Positions 2,449 through 61,019 of a stretch of DNA of 64,000 nt are shown here, piece by piece (position 1 is the stretch's first letter; every line of letters begins with the position of its first letter). Below the pieces are notes generated by a model. It did not search any database. It was not told where the DNA came from and saw only the letters and a list, made by a program, of their open reading frames with translations. The translations under genes and the position numbers were made by a program. The stretch spans positions 1,798,001 through 1,862,000 of the forward strand of contig NZ_CP132294.1 in assembly GCF_030734285.1 (NCBI RefSeq). Direction: 5' to 3'. Source of the DNA: Natronococcus sp. AD-5. Its GTDB lineage: Archaea > Halobacteriota > Halobacteria > Halobacteriales > Natrialbaceae.

Positions 2449-5400
2449 ATGGCCGCCGAGGAGACAACACGGCGTACTCTCGAGACCGATGTGGGAACGG
2501 ACGCGGTGAACGCGAAGCGAGCCGGTGATACCGGCGCCCTCGAAGCCGATCTGCGGGAGGGCTGCGCCGGAGACGTGCGCTTCGACGAGTACACCCGAGT
2601 GCTGTACGCGACCGACGGTAGCATCTACGGCGCCCAGCCCGCCGGCGTCGTCTTCCCGCGAGACGAGGCGGACGTCCGCGCCGCCGTCCGCGTCGCGAGC
2701 GAGCACGGCGTGCCGGTGCTTCCCCGCGGCGCCGGCTCGTCGCTCGCCGGACAGGCCGTCGGCCCCGGCTGCGTCGTCCTCGACCTCTCGAGACACATGG
2801 ACGAGGTCCTCGAGATCGACGCCGACCGACGGCGCGCGGTCGTCCAGCCCGGGGTCGTCCAGGATCACCTCGACGCCGCGCTCGAGCCCCACGGTCTGAA
2901 GTTCGCGCCCGACCCCGCCTCCTCGAACCGGGCGACGATCGGCGGCGGGATCGGGAACAACTCGACGGGCGCCCACTCGGTCCGGTACGGGATCACCGAC
3001 GCCTACGTCGAGGAGTGCGAGGTCGTCCTCGCGGACGGCTCGCTGATACGCACTCGAGACGTCGTCCTCGACAGCCCGGAGTGGGAGCGGATCGTCGAGA
3101 AGGACGACCGCGAGGCAGCTATTTACCGAACCGTCCGGGCCGTCGTCGAGGACAACGCCGACGAGATCGAGGACCGGTACCCGGAGCTCAAGCGGAGCGT
3201 CAGCGGCTACAATCTGCAGAAAGTGTTGCGGACGGATGCCGAAGGCAATCGGATCGTCAACCTCTCGAAGCTGCTCGTCGGCGCGGAGGGCACCCTCGGC
3301 GTCGTCGTCGAGGCGGCCCTCTCGCTCGTGACGCGACCCGAGGAGACCGCCCTCGTCGTCTGCTGTTACGACGACCTGCTCGAGGCGCTGGCCGCGGTTC
3401 CCGAGGCGCTCGCGCTCGAGGCCAGCGCCGTCGAACTCATGGACGACGAGGTGTTCAGACTCGCCGCGAACTCCGCGGAGTACGCCGAGTACGTCGAGTC
3501 GATCCCCGCGGGCACCGAGGCGGCGCTAATGCTCGAGTTCGACGACGAGGTGTTCTCGGATCTCCCCGACGCGATCGATACGGCGACGGACGAACTCGTC
3601 GACGGCGGCGCCGCATTCGATGCGATCGAGGCGTTCAGCTCCGAAAAACGGGACCGGCTCTGGAAGCTACGGAAGGCCGCCATCCCGCTGCTGATGGGCA
3701 TGGACGGCGACCCGAAACCGTACCCGTTCGTCGAGGACGCCTCCGTTCCGCCCGAGGAACTCGCCGAGTACGTCGCCGGCTTCCAGGAGATCCTGGAGGA
3801 CCACGACACGACGGCGGCGTACTTCGCTCACGCCGGCGCCGGAACGTTGCACATCCGGCCCGTCCTGAACCTCAAGACCGAGAACGACGTCGAGACGATG
3901 CGCTCGATCGCCGAAGACGTCACCTCGCTCGCGCTCGAGCACGACGGCTCGTTCTCGGGCGAGCACGGCGACGGCCTCGCCCGTACCGAGTTCAACCCCA
4001 AGCTGTACGGCCCCGAACTCTGGGACGCCTTCAAGGACGTCAAGTCGGCGTTCGACCCCGACTGGCGCATGAACCCCGGCAAGGTCGTCTACCGCGACGA
4101 GGACGGCGAGCGCACCGATATCCGCGACCACCTCCGGTACGGCGCCGACTACGCCTCGCTCGAGCCCCGGACCGGCCTCGACTTCGACGACGACGGGGGT
4201 TTCTCGCACCTCGTCGAACTCTGCAACGGCTGTGGCACCTGCCGCCAGACGGAGGGCGACGTGATGTGTCCGACCTACCGGGCGACCGAGGAGGAGATCG
4301 CGACCACTCGAGGACGAGCCAACCTGCTCCGGGCGGCGATCAGCGGCGAGATCGGCCCCGACGAACTCTACAGCGACCGGTTCCAGTCCGAGGTGCTCGA
4401 CCTCTGCATCGGCTGCAAGGGCTGTCAGAGCGACTGTCCGACCGGCGTCGACCTCGCGAAGCTCAAAGTCGAGGTGAAACACCAATACCACGACCGCGAG
4501 GGCGTGAGTCTTCGGGAGCGCCTGTTCGCGAACGTCGACCGACTCGCCGCGGTGGGCAGCGCGCTCGCGCCGATCGCGAACCGCGCGCCGACGCTTCCCG
4601 GCGCCCGGACGGTCCTCGAACGAACCGTCGGCATCGCCTCGGAGCGCACGCTCCCGACCTTCCAGCGGGAGACGCTCGTCTCCTGGTTCGAAAAGCGAGG
4701 CGGCGCGGCCGCCTCGAACAGGCGAGCGGCGGAGCCGCGAGCAGACCGCGGCTCTCGAGTCGACCCGGAGGCGGCGAGCGCCGGCGTCGTCCTCTACCCA
4801 GATACGGACACGAACTACTCGAATCCCGACGTCGGCAGGGCCGCCGTCAGGGTGCTCGAGGCCGCCGGCGTCCACGTCACCGTACCCGATCTCGGACCGA
4901 CGGGACGGGCGGCCTACTCGCAGGGTTTGCTCGACCGCGCGGCCGCAGACGGGCAGGCGCTGCTCGACGACCTCGAGCCGTACCTCGAGCGCGGCTGGTC
5001 GGTCTGCTTCGTCGAGCCGTCGGACGCCGCGATGGTGACCGACGAGTACCGCTCGCTGCTGGACGACGAGCGAGTCGAGACGCTCGCCGCGAACGCCTAC
5101 GATATCTGCGAGTACCTCGACGAACACCGCCTCGTCGAGGAATTAGACGTCGACGGCGAGAACGAACGGCTGACGTACCACGGCCACTGCCACCAGAAGG
5201 CCCGCGGAACGGACCACCACGCCGTCGGGGTGCTTCGGCGAGCAGGGTACGCGGTCGACCCCGTCGATTCGGGTTGCTGCGGGATGGCCGGCAGCTTCGG
5301 CTACGAGGCCGACCACTACGAACTCTCGAAGGCGGTCGGGTCGTTGCTCGAGGACCAACTCGCGGCGAGCGACGGGACGACCGTCGTCGCTCCCGGTACG

Positions 5401-5487
5401 TCCTGTCGGACCCAGATCGGCGATTTCGATGCGTACGATCGGCCGACCCACCCCGTCGAGCTGCTCGCGCAGGGACTCGAGCAGTAG
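2449..5487 (+). CDS. FAD-binding and Fe-S-binding oxidoreductase (D-lactate/glycolate dehydrogenase type)
   Basis: A fused dehydrogenase of 1012 residues. The N-terminal half is an FAD_binding_4 / FAD-oxidase C-terminal module (VLPRGAGSSLAGQAVG, ATIGGGIGNNSTGAHS) as in GlcD and D-lactate dehydrogenase. The second half is GlpC-like, with two ferredoxin-type cysteine sets (CNGCGTCRQTEGDVMCP and CIGCKGCQSDCP), then CCG-domain cysteines near the C-terminus (SGCCGMAGSFG). By family it oxidises a 2-hydroxy acid such as D-lactate or glycolate and passes electrons via Fe-S clusters towards the membrane quinone pool. ATG 2449 is preferred over the upstream GTG 2428, because a TATA-like TTTAAC lies about 28 bp ahead, as in leaderless transcripts. 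Substrate is not determinable from sequence. Confidence 0.9.
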   Translation: MAAEETTRRTLETDVGTDAVNAKRAGDTGALEADLREGCAGDVRFDEYTRVLYATDGSIYGAQPAGVVFPRDEADVRAAVRVASEHGVPVLPRGAGSSLAGQAVGPGCVVLDLSRHMDEVLEIDADRRRAVVQPGVVQDHLDAALEPHGLKFAPDPASSNRATIGGGIGNNSTGAHSVRYGITDAYVEECEVVLADGSLIRTRDVVLDSPEWERIVEKDDREAAIYRTVRAVVEDNADEIEDRYPELKRSVSGYNLQKVLRTDAEGNRIVNLSKLLVGAEGTLGVVVEAALSLVTRPEETALVVCCYDDLLEALAAVPEALALEASAVELMDDEVFRLAANSAEYAEYVESIPAGTEAALMLEFDDEVFSDLPDAIDTATDELVDGGAAFDAIEAFSSEKRDRLWKLRKAAIPLLMGMDGDPKPYPFVEDASVPPEELAEYVAGFQEILEDHDTTAAYFAHAGAGTLHIRPVLNLKTENDVETMRSIAEDVTSLALEHDGSFSGEHGDGLARTEFNPKLYGPELWDAFKDVKSAFDPDWRMNPGKVVYRDEDGERTDIRDHLRYGADYASLEPRTGLDFDDDGGFSHLVELCNGCGTCRQTEGDVMCPTYRATEEEIATTRGRANLLRAAISGEIGPDELYSDRFQSEVLDLCIGCKGCQSDCPTGVDLAKLKVEVKHQYHDREGVSLRERLFANVDRLAAVGSALAPIANRAPTLPGARTVLERTVGIASERTLPTFQRETLVSWFEKRGGAAASNRRAAEPRADRGSRVDPEAASAGVVLYPDTDTNYSNPDVGRAAVRVLEAAGVHVTVPDLGPTGRAAYSQGLLDRAAADGQALLDDLEPYLERGWSVCFVEPSDAAMVTDEYRSLLDDERVETLAANAYDICEYLDEHRLVEELDVDGENERLTYHGHCHQKARGTDHHAVGVLRRAGYAVDPVDSGCCGMAGSFGYEADHYELSKAVGSLLEDQLAASDGTTVVAPGTSCRTQIGDFDAYDRPTHPVELLAQGLEQ

Positions 5488-8815: not shown

Positions 8816-8890
8816 GCTCCGATAGTGTAGTCCGGCCAATCATATTGCCCTCTCGAGGCAATGACCGGGGTTCGAATCCCCGTCGGAGCA
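8816..8890 (+). tRNA. tRNA-Glu (CTC)
   Basis: 75 nt with acceptor stem GCTCCGA / TCGGAGC plus discriminator A. The anticodon stem TTGCC / GGCAA holds the loop CTCTCGA, so the anticodon is CTC. The TpsiC arm reads CCGGGGTTCGAATCCCCG. CCA is not encoded and there is no intron. A TATA-like CCTTAAA lies about 50 bp upstream. Its 3' end is the left boundary of the inferred insertion (see 8870-14324). Confidence 0.96.
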
Positions 8891-20707: not shown

Positions 20708-20792
20708 GCCGAGATAGCCTAGCCCGGCCAAGGCGGCAGATTCGAAATCTGCTGTCCTCACGGACTCGGGAGTTCAAATCTCCCTCTCGGCG
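20708..20792 (+). tRNA. tRNA-Ser (CGA)
   Basis: 85 nt, class II with a long variable arm. Acceptor GCCGAGA / TCTCGGC plus discriminator G. The anticodon stem GCAGA / TCTGC holds the loop TTCGAAA, so the anticodon is CGA. The variable arm (TGTCCTCACGGACTCG) and TpsiC arm (GGGAGTTCAAATCTCCC) fold normally. No CCA encoded, no intron. Confidence 0.96.
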
Positions 20793-20797
20793 CTTTT
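20773..20797 (+). repeat. tRNA-Ser 3' end and flank, copy 1 of imperfect repeat
   Basis: 25 bp starting in the TpsiC loop and running five bases past the tRNA (ends CGGCGCTTTT). It matches 20927-20951 at 22 of 25 positions. Confidence 0.7.
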
Positions 20798-20870
20798 CCG
20801 CGAACTACACCGTCGAGCACCGCGTGGCGTGTGCTCGGTATCCGTGAGCGGAACCCGACGAACAGGGAAT

Positions 20871-20931
20871 GTGAACGAGAGAAGACGGAGCATCCGAGTG
20901 AAGCGAGGATGATCGTCTTCGCGTGGTTCAC
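20871..20931 (+). ncRNA. stem-loop downstream of tRNA-Ser
   Basis: Three nested perfect stems fold this 61-nt piece: GTGAAC (20871-20876) with GTTCAC (20926-20931), GAAGACG (20881-20887) with CGTCTTC (20914-20920), and CATCC (20891-20895) with GGATG (20907-20911). Small asymmetric internal loops separate them. The fold is the same-strand continuation of the tRNA transcript, so it may be a processed trailer, a terminator-like element or a small RNA. Whether it is stable in the cell is not known. Confidence 0.45.
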
Positions 20932-20951
20932 ATCACCCTCCCGGCGCTTTT
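20927..20951 (+). repeat. degenerate copy of tRNA-Ser 3' end, copy 2
   Basis: 22 of 25 bases match 20773-20797, including CCCGGCGCTTTT at the end. The rest of the tRNA is absent. The 129 bp between the two copies contain the stem-loop. This resembles an attachment-site remnant. Confidence 0.65.
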
Positions 20952-25044: not shown

Positions 25045-26679
25045 TCAGTCGTCGGCCGGCGCGAGCGGTTGTTCCTCGCTGGCGAGCAGCCGATCGAGCG
25101 CGTCGACCATCGCCTCGACGCTCGCGCGGGTGATGTCGGCCTCGCTCCGGGCGACCGTCACCGACCGGTCGTCGCGGACCATCGTCACCTCGACCGTGAC
25201 GACGGCGTCGGTCCCGCCGGTAACCGCGTCGACGTGGTAGGACTCGAGTTCGGCGTCGGCCATCGAGCCGAGCGCCTCGCGAACGGCGGAGACGGCGGCG
25301 TCGACGGGTCCGGACCCGGTTCCGCTGGCGACGCGCTCCTCGCCGCCGACGTCGAGCCGGATGCTCGCCGTGGGAACGGGACCGCCGCTCGTCGCGGTGA
25401 GGTCGAGCAGCTCGACGACGCGGTCGCGGTCGTCGCCGGTGACGTCCTCGGCGACGGCGAGCAGGTCGGCGTCGGTGACGCGCCGTCCGCGGTCGCCGAG
25501 TTCGGTGACGCGGGTCGCAATCTCCGCGATTTCCTCGCCGCTGGCGTCGACGTCGTGCTCCTCGAGCGTCGCCTTGACGCCGGCCCGGCCGGTGTGCTTG
25601 CCGAGCGCGAGGCGGCGCTCGCGACCGACCGTCTCTGGCGCGTACGGTTCGTACATCTTGTCGTCCTTCAGCGTCCCGTCGGTGTGGATGCCGCTCTCGT
25701 GGGTGAAGGCGTTCTCGCCGATGACGGCCTTGTTCGGCGGCAGCGGTACGCCGGTCGCTCGCGAGACGAGTTGGGCGAGGTCGTACAGCCCCTCGAGATC
25801 GACGGTGCCGACGTCGTAGACGTGCTCGAGTGCGATCGCGACCTCCTCGAGGGCGACGTTACCGGCGCGTTCGCCGAGGCCGTTTACCGTACAGTGAACG
25901 AGATCCGCCCCCGCGGAGACGGCCGACAGCGCGTTCGCGACGCCCAGCCCGAGGTCGTCGTGGGTGTGGGCGCTGACCGGTCCGAGGTCGGCGAGCCGGG
26001 AGACCGCCTCGGTCGTGCGCTCCGGACCGGTGTGGCCGACGGTGTCGGCGAAGCAGGTCCGATCGGCGCCCGCGTCGAGCGCGGTCGCCATCAGTTCCTC
26101 GAGGTAGTCGAGGTCGGCCCGGGAGCCGTCCTCGCCGATGACCTCGACCCAGAGGTCGTGATCGGTGGCGTACTCGACGAGTTCGGCGGTCGCCTCGAGG
26201 TTCGCCTCGCGGGAGGTGCCGACCTTCCCCTCGACGTGGCGGTCGCTCGCGGGAACCACGACGTGGACGCCGTCGACGTCGCAGTCCAGCGCGAGGTCGA
26301 TGTCCGTCGCCATCCCGCGACAGAAGCTGGTGACGCGGGCCTCGAGGTCGAGGTCGGTCACCCGCGAGATGGCCTGGCGTTCGCCCGCGCCGGTGCAGGC
26401 GCTCCCGGCCTCGATGACCGAAACGCCGGTCCGCTCGAGCTCGCGGGCGATCTCGACTTTTTCGTCGGGTGAGAGCGAGACACCCGGGGCTTGTTCGCCG
26501 TCGCGAAGCGTCGTATCGAGAAGGCGGACTGTACGGTCGGCTGCGATCGTCTGCTCCGGAGAAGCGGTCACGAAGGAAGAATTATCTCCGTCCTGGAATT
26601 TCGCGCCCAGCCGGGTTGCCCCGACTTCCTCTATCCTCGGACTCCGGCGTTGAGAACGAATCTCGTACCATCGTACCAT
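25045..26679 (-). CDS. 2-isopropylmalate synthase / citramalate synthase family (LeuA/CimA)
   Basis: A 544-residue acyltransferase of the DRE-TIM superfamily. It condenses acetyl-CoA with a 2-oxo acid, 2-oxoisovalerate (leucine route) or pyruvate (citramalate route). Features: DTTLRDGEQAPGVSLSPDEK from residue 55 or so, THTHDDLG-like SAHTHDDLGLGVANAL metal site, GERAGNVALEE, FTHESGIHTDG, and a C-terminal regulatory LeuA dimer domain (about 410-540). ATG 26679 gives a roughly 48-residue N-terminal extension before the first conserved strand. A TATA-like GGTTAAGTC about 22-30 bp upstream supports it, with GTG 26571 the alternative. No leucine operon follows, so the exact substrate is open. Confidence 0.88.
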   Translation of the reverse strand: MVRWYEIRSQRRSPRIEEVGATRLGAKFQDGDNSSFVTASPEQTIAADRTVRLLDTTLRDGEQAPGVSLSPDEKVEIARELERTGVSVIEAGSACTGAGERQAISRVTDLDLEARVTSFCRGMATDIDLALDCDVDGVHVVVPASDRHVEGKVGTSREANLEATAELVEYATDHDLWVEVIGEDGSRADLDYLEELMATALDAGADRTCFADTVGHTGPERTTEAVSRLADLGPVSAHTHDDLGLGVANALSAVSAGADLVHCTVNGLGERAGNVALEEVAIALEHVYDVGTVDLEGLYDLAQLVSRATGVPLPPNKAVIGENAFTHESGIHTDGTLKDDKMYEPYAPETVGRERRLALGKHTGRAGVKATLEEHDVDASGEEIAEIATRVTELGDRGRRVTDADLLAVAEDVTGDDRDRVVELLDLTATSGGPVPTASIRLDVGGEERVASGTGSGPVDAAVSAVREALGSMADAELESYHVDAVTGGTDAVVTVEVTMVRDDRSVTVARSEADITRASVEAMVDALDRLLASEEQPLAPADD

Positions 26680-60381: not shown

Positions 60382-60555
60382 ATGAAAGAACCAACATGCA
60401 AGCTGGTGTGTACCGGGTGCGGCCTCGAGATGCCGTACCGGGATCGATCGTTGGCCGAGCAGGCGGCCGAACTCCACCAGCTTCGCGATTCGGAGCATAT
60501 CACCTTCATCGTGCCGCCCGACTGGTCGCCCGAGGAACCAGTGAAACACGAGTGA
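60382..60555 (+). CDS. zinc-finger microprotein
   Basis: A 57-residue protein (MKEPTCKLVCTGCGLEMPYR to SPEEPVKHE) with Cys6, Cys10, Cys13 and His32 or His39 as possible zinc ligands. Short zinc proteins of this kind are common in haloarchaea and bind nucleic acids or other proteins. The frame has good codon use and a Cys/His-rich head; no homologue is named. Lies 46 bp ahead of tRNA-Leu on the same strand. Confidence 0.65.
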   Translation: MKEPTCKLVCTGCGLEMPYRDRSLAEQAAELHQLRDSEHITFIVPPDWSPEEPVKHE

Positions 60556-60601: not shown

Positions 60602-60686
60602 GCGCGGGTAGCCAAGCTAGGCCAACGGCGCAGCGCTTAGGACGCTGTCCCGTAGGGGTCCGCCGGTTCGAATCCGGTCCCGCGCA
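60602..60686 (+). tRNA. tRNA-Leu (TAG)
   Basis: 85 nt, class II. Acceptor GCGCGGG / CCCGCGC plus discriminator A. The anticodon stem CAGCG / CGCTG holds the loop CTTAGGA, so the anticodon is TAG. Long variable arm TCCCGTAGGGGT and TpsiC arm CCGGTTCGAATCCGG. CCA not encoded, no intron. Confidence 0.96.
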
Positions 60687-60720
60687 TTGCTGTGGCGAGC
60701 AAATTCGCGAGCGACAGCAA
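60687..60720 (+). ncRNA. stem-loop directly after tRNA-Leu
   Basis: TTGCTGT (60687-60693) pairs with ACAGCAA (60714-60720); an inner GCGA / TCGC stem closes a small loop. It begins at the very next base after the tRNA, so the primary transcript will carry it. Confidence 0.5.
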
Positions 60721-60722
60721 TC

Positions 60723-60739
60723 GTCTGCCGGTTCGAATC
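60723..60739 (+). repeat. degenerate copy of the tRNA-Leu TpsiC arm
   Basis: Matches 60658-60674 of the tRNA at 16 of 17 bases (one C to T change), then diverges. Same position after the hairpin as the copy behind tRNA-Ser. Confidence 0.65.
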
Positions 60740-61019
60740 GACGGGTGGCAACGGTATCGAATCGATATTATTCACGTAGTTGGGTATTTCGAAGCAGCGG
60801 TTACGTAGAACTGCGAACGGACTGCTGCGAGCGCTATCAAACAGCGATGACGCTGGGAGAACAGTGCTAATAGAAGGCGCGAGTGCAGTACGCACTGGTG
60901 CTCAGTTAGGGAGGTGTGGCGGGCGAAGAACTGGTGGAGCGGTCCCACCCGAACGGGGAACAAAGGCAACCCGATCTGACCACGAAGCATATACCGATGG
61001 TATCGACGACTAGTACTGT
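60740..61019. other. intergenic region before the 111-residue gene
   Basis: 280 bp. A TATA-like GCATATACC near 60987-60995 lies about 30 bp before the start at 61020 and is overlapped by the short palindrome ATACC-GAT-GGTAT. Otherwise no feature. Confidence 0.4.

Follow-up and report, generated by a model that had tools for sequence, protein, structure and literature searches.

What follows the tRNA-Leu(UAG) gene of Natronococcus sp. AD-5, where a hairpin is succeeded by a near copy of the tRNA's own T-arm? The gene lies in a stretch of 64,000 nucleotides which we analysed as a whole (the window). A preliminary description of this DNA had noted the order tRNA, hairpin, T-arm copy behind both tRNA-Leu and tRNA-Ser(CGA), and had proposed that it reflects a rule rather than chance. 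Our analysis, which draws on the 3' flanks of all tRNA genes in the genome and on 30 related tRNA-Leu loci, indicates that about half of haloarchaeal tRNA genes are followed by gene-less units with two hairpins, and points to these units being site-specific mobile DNA of a widespread kind that seems not to have been described. No description of them was found in the openly licensed papers that we searched.

The tRNA-Leu(UAG) and tRNA-Ser(CGA) loci

The hairpin behind tRNA-Leu does begin at the base after the tRNA, as first described, although its extent had to be corrected so that it ends at 60720; it is nearly intact, and loci L032-L035 of congeners have it in the orthologous position. The T-arm copy is equally real: GTCTGCCGGTTCGAATC agrees with GTCCGCCGGTTCGAATC of the tRNA (60658-60674) at 16 of 17 positions, and apart from tRNA-Leu itself and this copy there is no match of at least 14 of 17 positions to the T-arm on either strand of the window. 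Its place was also corrected: it is the inner element (A') of a longer structure rather than a copy of the tRNA's 3' end at the terminus of that structure. The identity of the window locus to its congeners stops exactly at the last base of this element, and beyond it we recognise by comparison only a truncated second hairpin and a decayed terminal copy. The example in the window is thus best read, from its aligned sequence, as a decayed copy of a larger composite unit. Just 5' of tRNA-Leu, at 60382-60555 on the forward strand, lies the coding sequence of a 57-residue CxxC protein (MKEPTCKLVCTGCGLEMPYRDRSLAEQ..), whose reading frame is found at the same position in relatives.

The unit behind tRNA-Ser(CGA) is nearly complete (20793-20946; Table 1). 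The 3' flank of the third tRNA gene of the window, tRNA-Glu(CUC) at 8816, was read and holds no unit. The window also carries, at 26593-26645 on the reverse strand, a member of the known cis-regulatory family leuA-Halobacteria RNA (RF03001).

Table 1. Elements of the two tRNA-linked units, in positions of the window.
Feature	Position	Strand	Remarks
tRNA-Ser(CGA) gene	20708-20792	+	T54-N73 at 20773-20792
Ser unit, hairpin 1	20793-20853	+	with an extra nested hairpin
Ser unit, A'	20863-20876	+	CAGGGAATGTGAAC; pairing partner of A2
Ser unit, hairpin 2	20877-20925	+	GAGAAGACG..CGTCTTCGCGTG; covariance-model match at contig C1 1818876-1818925
Ser unit, A2	20926-20946	+	GTTCACATCACCCTCCCGGCG; copy of the tRNA-Ser 3' end
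tRNA-Leu(UAG) gene	60602-60686	+	repeated block A1 = T54-N73 at 60667-60686
Leu unit, hairpin 1 (type A), nearly intact	60687-60720	+	TTGCTGT..GCGAGC AAATTC GCGA GC..ACAGCAA
Leu unit, A' (the T-arm copy first described)	60723-60739	+	T-loop direct in this genus, CCGGTTCGAATC
Leu unit, hairpin 2, truncated remnant	60740-60750	+	inferred by comparison with L032-L035
Leu unit, A2, decayed remnant	about 60752-60765	+	CGGTATCGAATCGA; inferred from the aligned architecture

Anatomy and borders of the intact unit

In an intact unit the 3' end of the tRNA (A1) is followed by hairpin 1, an inverted T-arm (A'), hairpin 2 and A2, a direct copy of positions 54-73 of the same tRNA that is separated from hairpin 2 by a single G. 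Hairpin 1 begins at most 1-2 bases past the discriminator. Most units are about 75-200 bp long and consist largely of hairpins and repeats, with no space for an ordinary gene. The borders are sharp: in 196 copies, identity to the tRNA begins exactly at T54 and ends after N73, which sets the border at G53|T54, and the core at the unit junction is GTTCRAAY. The tRNA specificity of A' is confined to the T-loop and T-stem, which does not support the idea that A' repeats the whole acceptor in inverted form; at tRNA-Leu in this genus, A' carries the T-loop in direct orientation.

Frequency, specificity and distribution

The preliminary description had asked for a scan of haloarchaeal tRNA genes and for a shuffle control, on the grounds that T-arms are similar in all tRNAs. 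The genome has 49 tRNA matches. With a 27-nt query from each tRNA 3' end, a score of at least 13 and a limit of 200 nt downstream, copies were found behind 22 of 48 tRNAs, a count that includes one second tRNA-Asp gene of a tandem pair, as against 1 of 48 upstream; 20 shuffles of each of these flanks gave none, and so did not reproduce the frequency of near matches. When neighbouring tRNAs were masked as a stricter test, 19 of 48 retained a copy, compared with 0/32 and 0/27 (0/59 together) in two non-haloarchaeal genomes of the phylum. Among the tRNA-Leu(UAG) loci that were fetched, 28 of 30 fit the rule. The proposed rule is therefore supported in this genome (19-22 of 48 tRNAs) and in two congeners (24/47 and 29/45), with copies that are specific to their tRNA; it was incomplete in that it did not include hairpin 2, the inverted T-arm or a last copy that reaches the discriminator, nor any evidence of insertion. 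The reading as an RNA 3' end that it implied is the less favoured one.

A pattern comprising only the 3' arm of hairpin 2 and the start of the T-loop was scanned against 84,980 genomes and matched at least 120 stretches. Among the matches listed (128, including three viral), 95 have a tRNA 55-466 nt upstream in the same orientation, and in 88 of these 95 the 12 nt after the T-loop agree with the adjoining tRNA at 9 or more positions, whereas other tRNAs reach such agreement in 7.7%. The bacterial and viral matches among those listed have no upstream tRNA. A covariance model of hairpin 2 has matches in 48 of the 53 genomes from the order, compared with 0 of 242 other genomes of the phylum; since the matches of one genus are partly a different multi-copy sequence, 48/53 is an upper figure for tRNA-linked units. 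Most matches of this model with E < 0.05 in the genome itself sit behind tRNAs, and a unit is also present on a contig of Natronococcus amylolyticus. Chance similarity is rejected by the shuffles, the upstream and other-tRNA controls and the two non-halophile genomes, and membership of a known RNA family by the lack of any Rfam match.

Gain, loss and arrays

Units come and go precisely. In three congeners they stand behind 19/49, 24/47 and 29/45 tRNAs, and the sets of occupied tRNAs differ. Clean pairs of empty and filled sites between congeners, unpolarised as to gain or loss, were found at Leu-CAG, Leu-CAA and Gly-CCC. In the filled allele a single unit separates the tRNA from a flank that adjoins the tRNA in the other species, and this native flank continues immediately past A2. 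At tRNA-Leu(UAG) the units form arrays of 1-4. We read eight multi-unit arrays by eye: all internal copies but one (12 of 13) are perfect, and the last copy is degraded in every array. Such a polarity would follow if each new unit were added next to the tRNA. The presence or absence of units between congeners is thus precise, their borders lie at G53|T54 and N73, and their arrays are polar.

Locus L032 resembles L033 minus the stretch between two A' elements, and at three loci (L150, L155 and L129) hairpin 2 is inverted, relative to the tRNA, between A' and A2. Hairpin-2 modules that stand behind different tRNAs can be as much as 98% alike, each with the local arms, and copies track local variants of the tRNA at L054 and L057. 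Two units at different tRNAs of one genome resemble each other no more closely than do two units of different genomes, and a recent burst of units within a genome is thereby rejected.

Fold and strand

In the outer helix of hairpin 2, A' pairs with the part of A2 that holds T-loop and T-stem; a conserved unpaired spacer of 5/6 nt, an inner helix of 7 bp and a variable tip follow. Two inner pairs covary (C-G 19 / G-C 15, and G-C 21 / A-U 14), and the covariation score of the stems, both A'-A2 and hairpin 2, was reached in 0 of 500 shuffles. An inner R-Y pair of hairpin 1 covaries as well (G-C 38, A-T 36, n=87). T54, the border of the copied block, lies where the outer helix meets the spacer.

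The fold has a strand: the tip motif GARCGNAGYGA reads in the sense of the tRNA 92 times and in the opposite sense 3 times, and the predicted folds of the top strand are the more stable with RNA parameters, while with DNA parameters this is clear for hairpin 2 only. The G-T and A-C mispairs in the units number 69:76 and 190:152, compared with 24:1 in the tRNA acceptor stems of the same genomes. Because the two kinds of mispair are about equally frequent, unlike those of tRNA stems, the evidence leans, though indirectly, towards the sense strand acting as folded single-stranded DNA and away from a conserved RNA.

A model for insertion at the T-loop

The precise insertions, the tRNA-specific arms and the strand bias suggest a tentative model, to which we assign a probability of roughly 0.45: the units would be gene-less, site-specific insertion units at haloarchaeal tRNA 3' ends, which a recombinase would join to the T-loop while their DNA is single-stranded and folded. 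When the tRNA-sense strand becomes single-stranded, A' would pair with A2 and rebuild the T-arm as a duplex recombination site capped by hairpin 2. A putative recombinase of the host or of a mobile element would then connect the folded unit with the tRNA gene's T-loop, at G53|T54. With T54-N73 supplied by the new unit, the tRNA would be preserved, and the former 3' end would be shifted downstream as A2. As the unit would bring its own T54-N73, a tRNA would survive only with a compatible unit. The enzyme would most likely be one of many tyrosine recombinases acting in trans, and any of the 21 tyrosine-recombinase matches in the genome could serve. Some observations fit this model less well: no recombinase was linked to the units, no circular or excised form can be seen in assemblies, and a few copies of hairpin 2 lie away from tRNAs (L202, L217), which a mechanism based on the T-arm alone does not predict.

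The model has a close analogue in bacteria. The core consensus of integron sites is GTTRRRY, with the junction at G|TT. The attC site folds into an R stem, an unpaired central spacer, an L stem and a variable terminal structure (PMC8946536). The unit likewise has two covarying helices with an unpaired spacer between them and a variable terminal part, and its junction lies at G|TT, where outer helix and spacer meet; choice of strand, insertion beside a platform and tandem arrays are further likenesses to integron cassettes. The haloarchaeal units differ in their core (GTTCRAAY), in carrying no genes, in having no attI and in using a tRNA gene as platform, and none of 117 haloarchaeal genomes holds a match over cut-off to the integron integrase IntI (TIGR02249), the only matches being below threshold. 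By this analogy the units may work like attC cassettes, but they are not integrons.

A related layout occurs behind tRNA-Tyr of Escherichia coli. The distal repeats of tyrT/tyrV (RtT), present in 4,680 of 5,426 E. coli genomes, include three exact direct copies of 19 nt of the tRNA-Tyr 3' end (AATCCTTCCCCCACCACCA), and each 178-bp repeat at the locus L352 (E. coli K-12 1285700-1287700) holds an inverted copy of that end (GGGGAAGGATGAGAA, 13/15). A bacterium thus shares the layout A-x-A'-y-A, in the form of tandem units directly behind a tRNA, each ending in a direct copy of its 3' end. The RtT repeats differ in that they occupy a single locus, where the haloarchaeal units stand at dozens of tRNAs, and in their 178-bp length; no common hairpin sequences were noted, and Rfam RtT (RF00391) did not match the haloarchaeal units: even with a relaxed threshold it hit only tRNA and one sequence by chance. 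It is a bolder and, in our judgement, unlikely proposal that haloarchaea possess a genome-wide integron-like system in which gene-less folded cassettes shuttle between tRNA T-arms as platforms, with tyrT/RtT as its bacterial relic.

The DNA 3' of archaeal tRNA genes thus holds a large, structured and fast-changing family of insertion units that is absent from existing libraries of RNAs and mobile elements. The units are ready-made insertion sites that are neutral to the tRNA, and they could mislead the annotation of tRNA ends and small RNAs. If the folded-strand model is true, site-specific recombination of single-stranded DNA, known mainly from bacterial integrons, also acts on archaeal tRNA genes, and the model would in addition account for the long-known repeats of E. 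coli tyrT.

Alternative explanations

The best surviving alternative, which we nevertheless consider improbable, is that the units are miniature transposons whose 20-bp target-site duplication is T54-N73 and whose transposase, casposase-like or of an HUH/IS605 type acting on single-stranded DNA as in the case of haloarchaeal PATEs, is supplied in trans. Exact insertion with a direct repeat, the constant T54-N73 block and two subterminal strand-specific palindromes without a gene would all follow from it, as would the two copies of hairpin 2 at non-tRNA sites, one of them with a direct repeat (CGTACTCATG-CGA). Casposons have terminal inverted repeats, cas1-solo and target duplications of 14-15 bp, however, where the units have a block of 20 nt and no coding sequence, and a duplication does not account for the inverted T-arm that is specific to each tRNA. 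The known gene-less elements of Haloquadratum, PATEs and small mobile repeats of about 110 bp, lend this explanation a precedent (PMC3119063): like the units they are of about 50-200 bp, contain palindromes and are mobilised in trans, as the units would be. PATEs derive from IS605, to an element of which type their near-terminal palindromes are related. The units have palindromes and a 20-nt direct repeat, whereas PATEs do not duplicate their target, have no link to tRNAs and contain no target copy (PMC3119063).

It is distinctly unlikely that the units are structured RNAs, that is, tRNA 3' trailers co-transcribed with the tRNA and processed to small RNAs like RtT, perhaps regulating maturation through alternative pairing of A1:A' and A':A2. 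Strong conserved folds on the tRNA-sense strand, their stability with RNA parameters and a hairpin that begins at the base after the discriminator fit such RNAs, and the E. coli tyrT repeats of the same layout are annotated as the RtT sRNA; yet the mispair frequencies differ from those of tRNA stems, the presence of units varies between congeners, hairpin 2 is inverted at some loci and Rfam has no match.

Least probable, and very unlikely, is that the copies are att remnants of ordinary tRNA-targeting integrative elements or proviruses, whose haloarchaeal members use tRNA 3' ends as integration sites, where partial copies of the tRNA are left (PMC3119063, PMC8371274): although such elements, with tyrosine integrases and a T-loop sublocation, also yield a direct repeat from T-loop to tRNA 3' end and an intact tRNA, and although an integrase gene abuts the unit in L143 and large elements separate tRNA and unit in L109 and L178, they carry kilobases of cargo and an integrase and do not have the architecture of paired hairpins and inverted T-arm, whereas in the units, despite their direct repeat, hairpins 1 and 2 stay together with no cargo between them in the loci read, and both are conserved over families instead of decaying. 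The plasmid, phage and viral collections hold no convincing copy of a unit, the three viral pattern matches looking like chance, and in a comparison with tRNA-Ala/Ile no distal att copies were found at up to 2 mismatches.

Larger elements and copies away from tRNAs

Larger mobile elements lie between the 5' part of the tRNA and a displaced unit at L143 (near 5270-5430), L109 and L178; at L143 the integrase gene ends just before the unit. In the genome of Natronococcus sp. AD-5 a copy of hairpin 2 (L202, C1:307005-307047) precedes a lipoprotein-like gene rather than following a tRNA, and its arms (GGTTCGATTCTCGAA) have 12 nt in common with the T-arm of tRNA-His. A second, strong copy (L217:1460-1570; G258:C1 near 566730) lies at the start of a protein gene, where the direct repeat given above and a short inverted match flank it in the layout of a unit at a non-tRNA target. 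A further genus of the same order (g33; L246-L252, L255, L256, L259, L260) has a multi-copy sequence of a few hundred nucleotides away from tRNAs, without a match in Rfam; a hairpin within it belongs to the hairpin-2 type (CGGAAGTCGCAGCCCGC..GCAGGAACGTCTTCCG), and several copies of the sequence have a TATA-like TTATAAATGG upstream.
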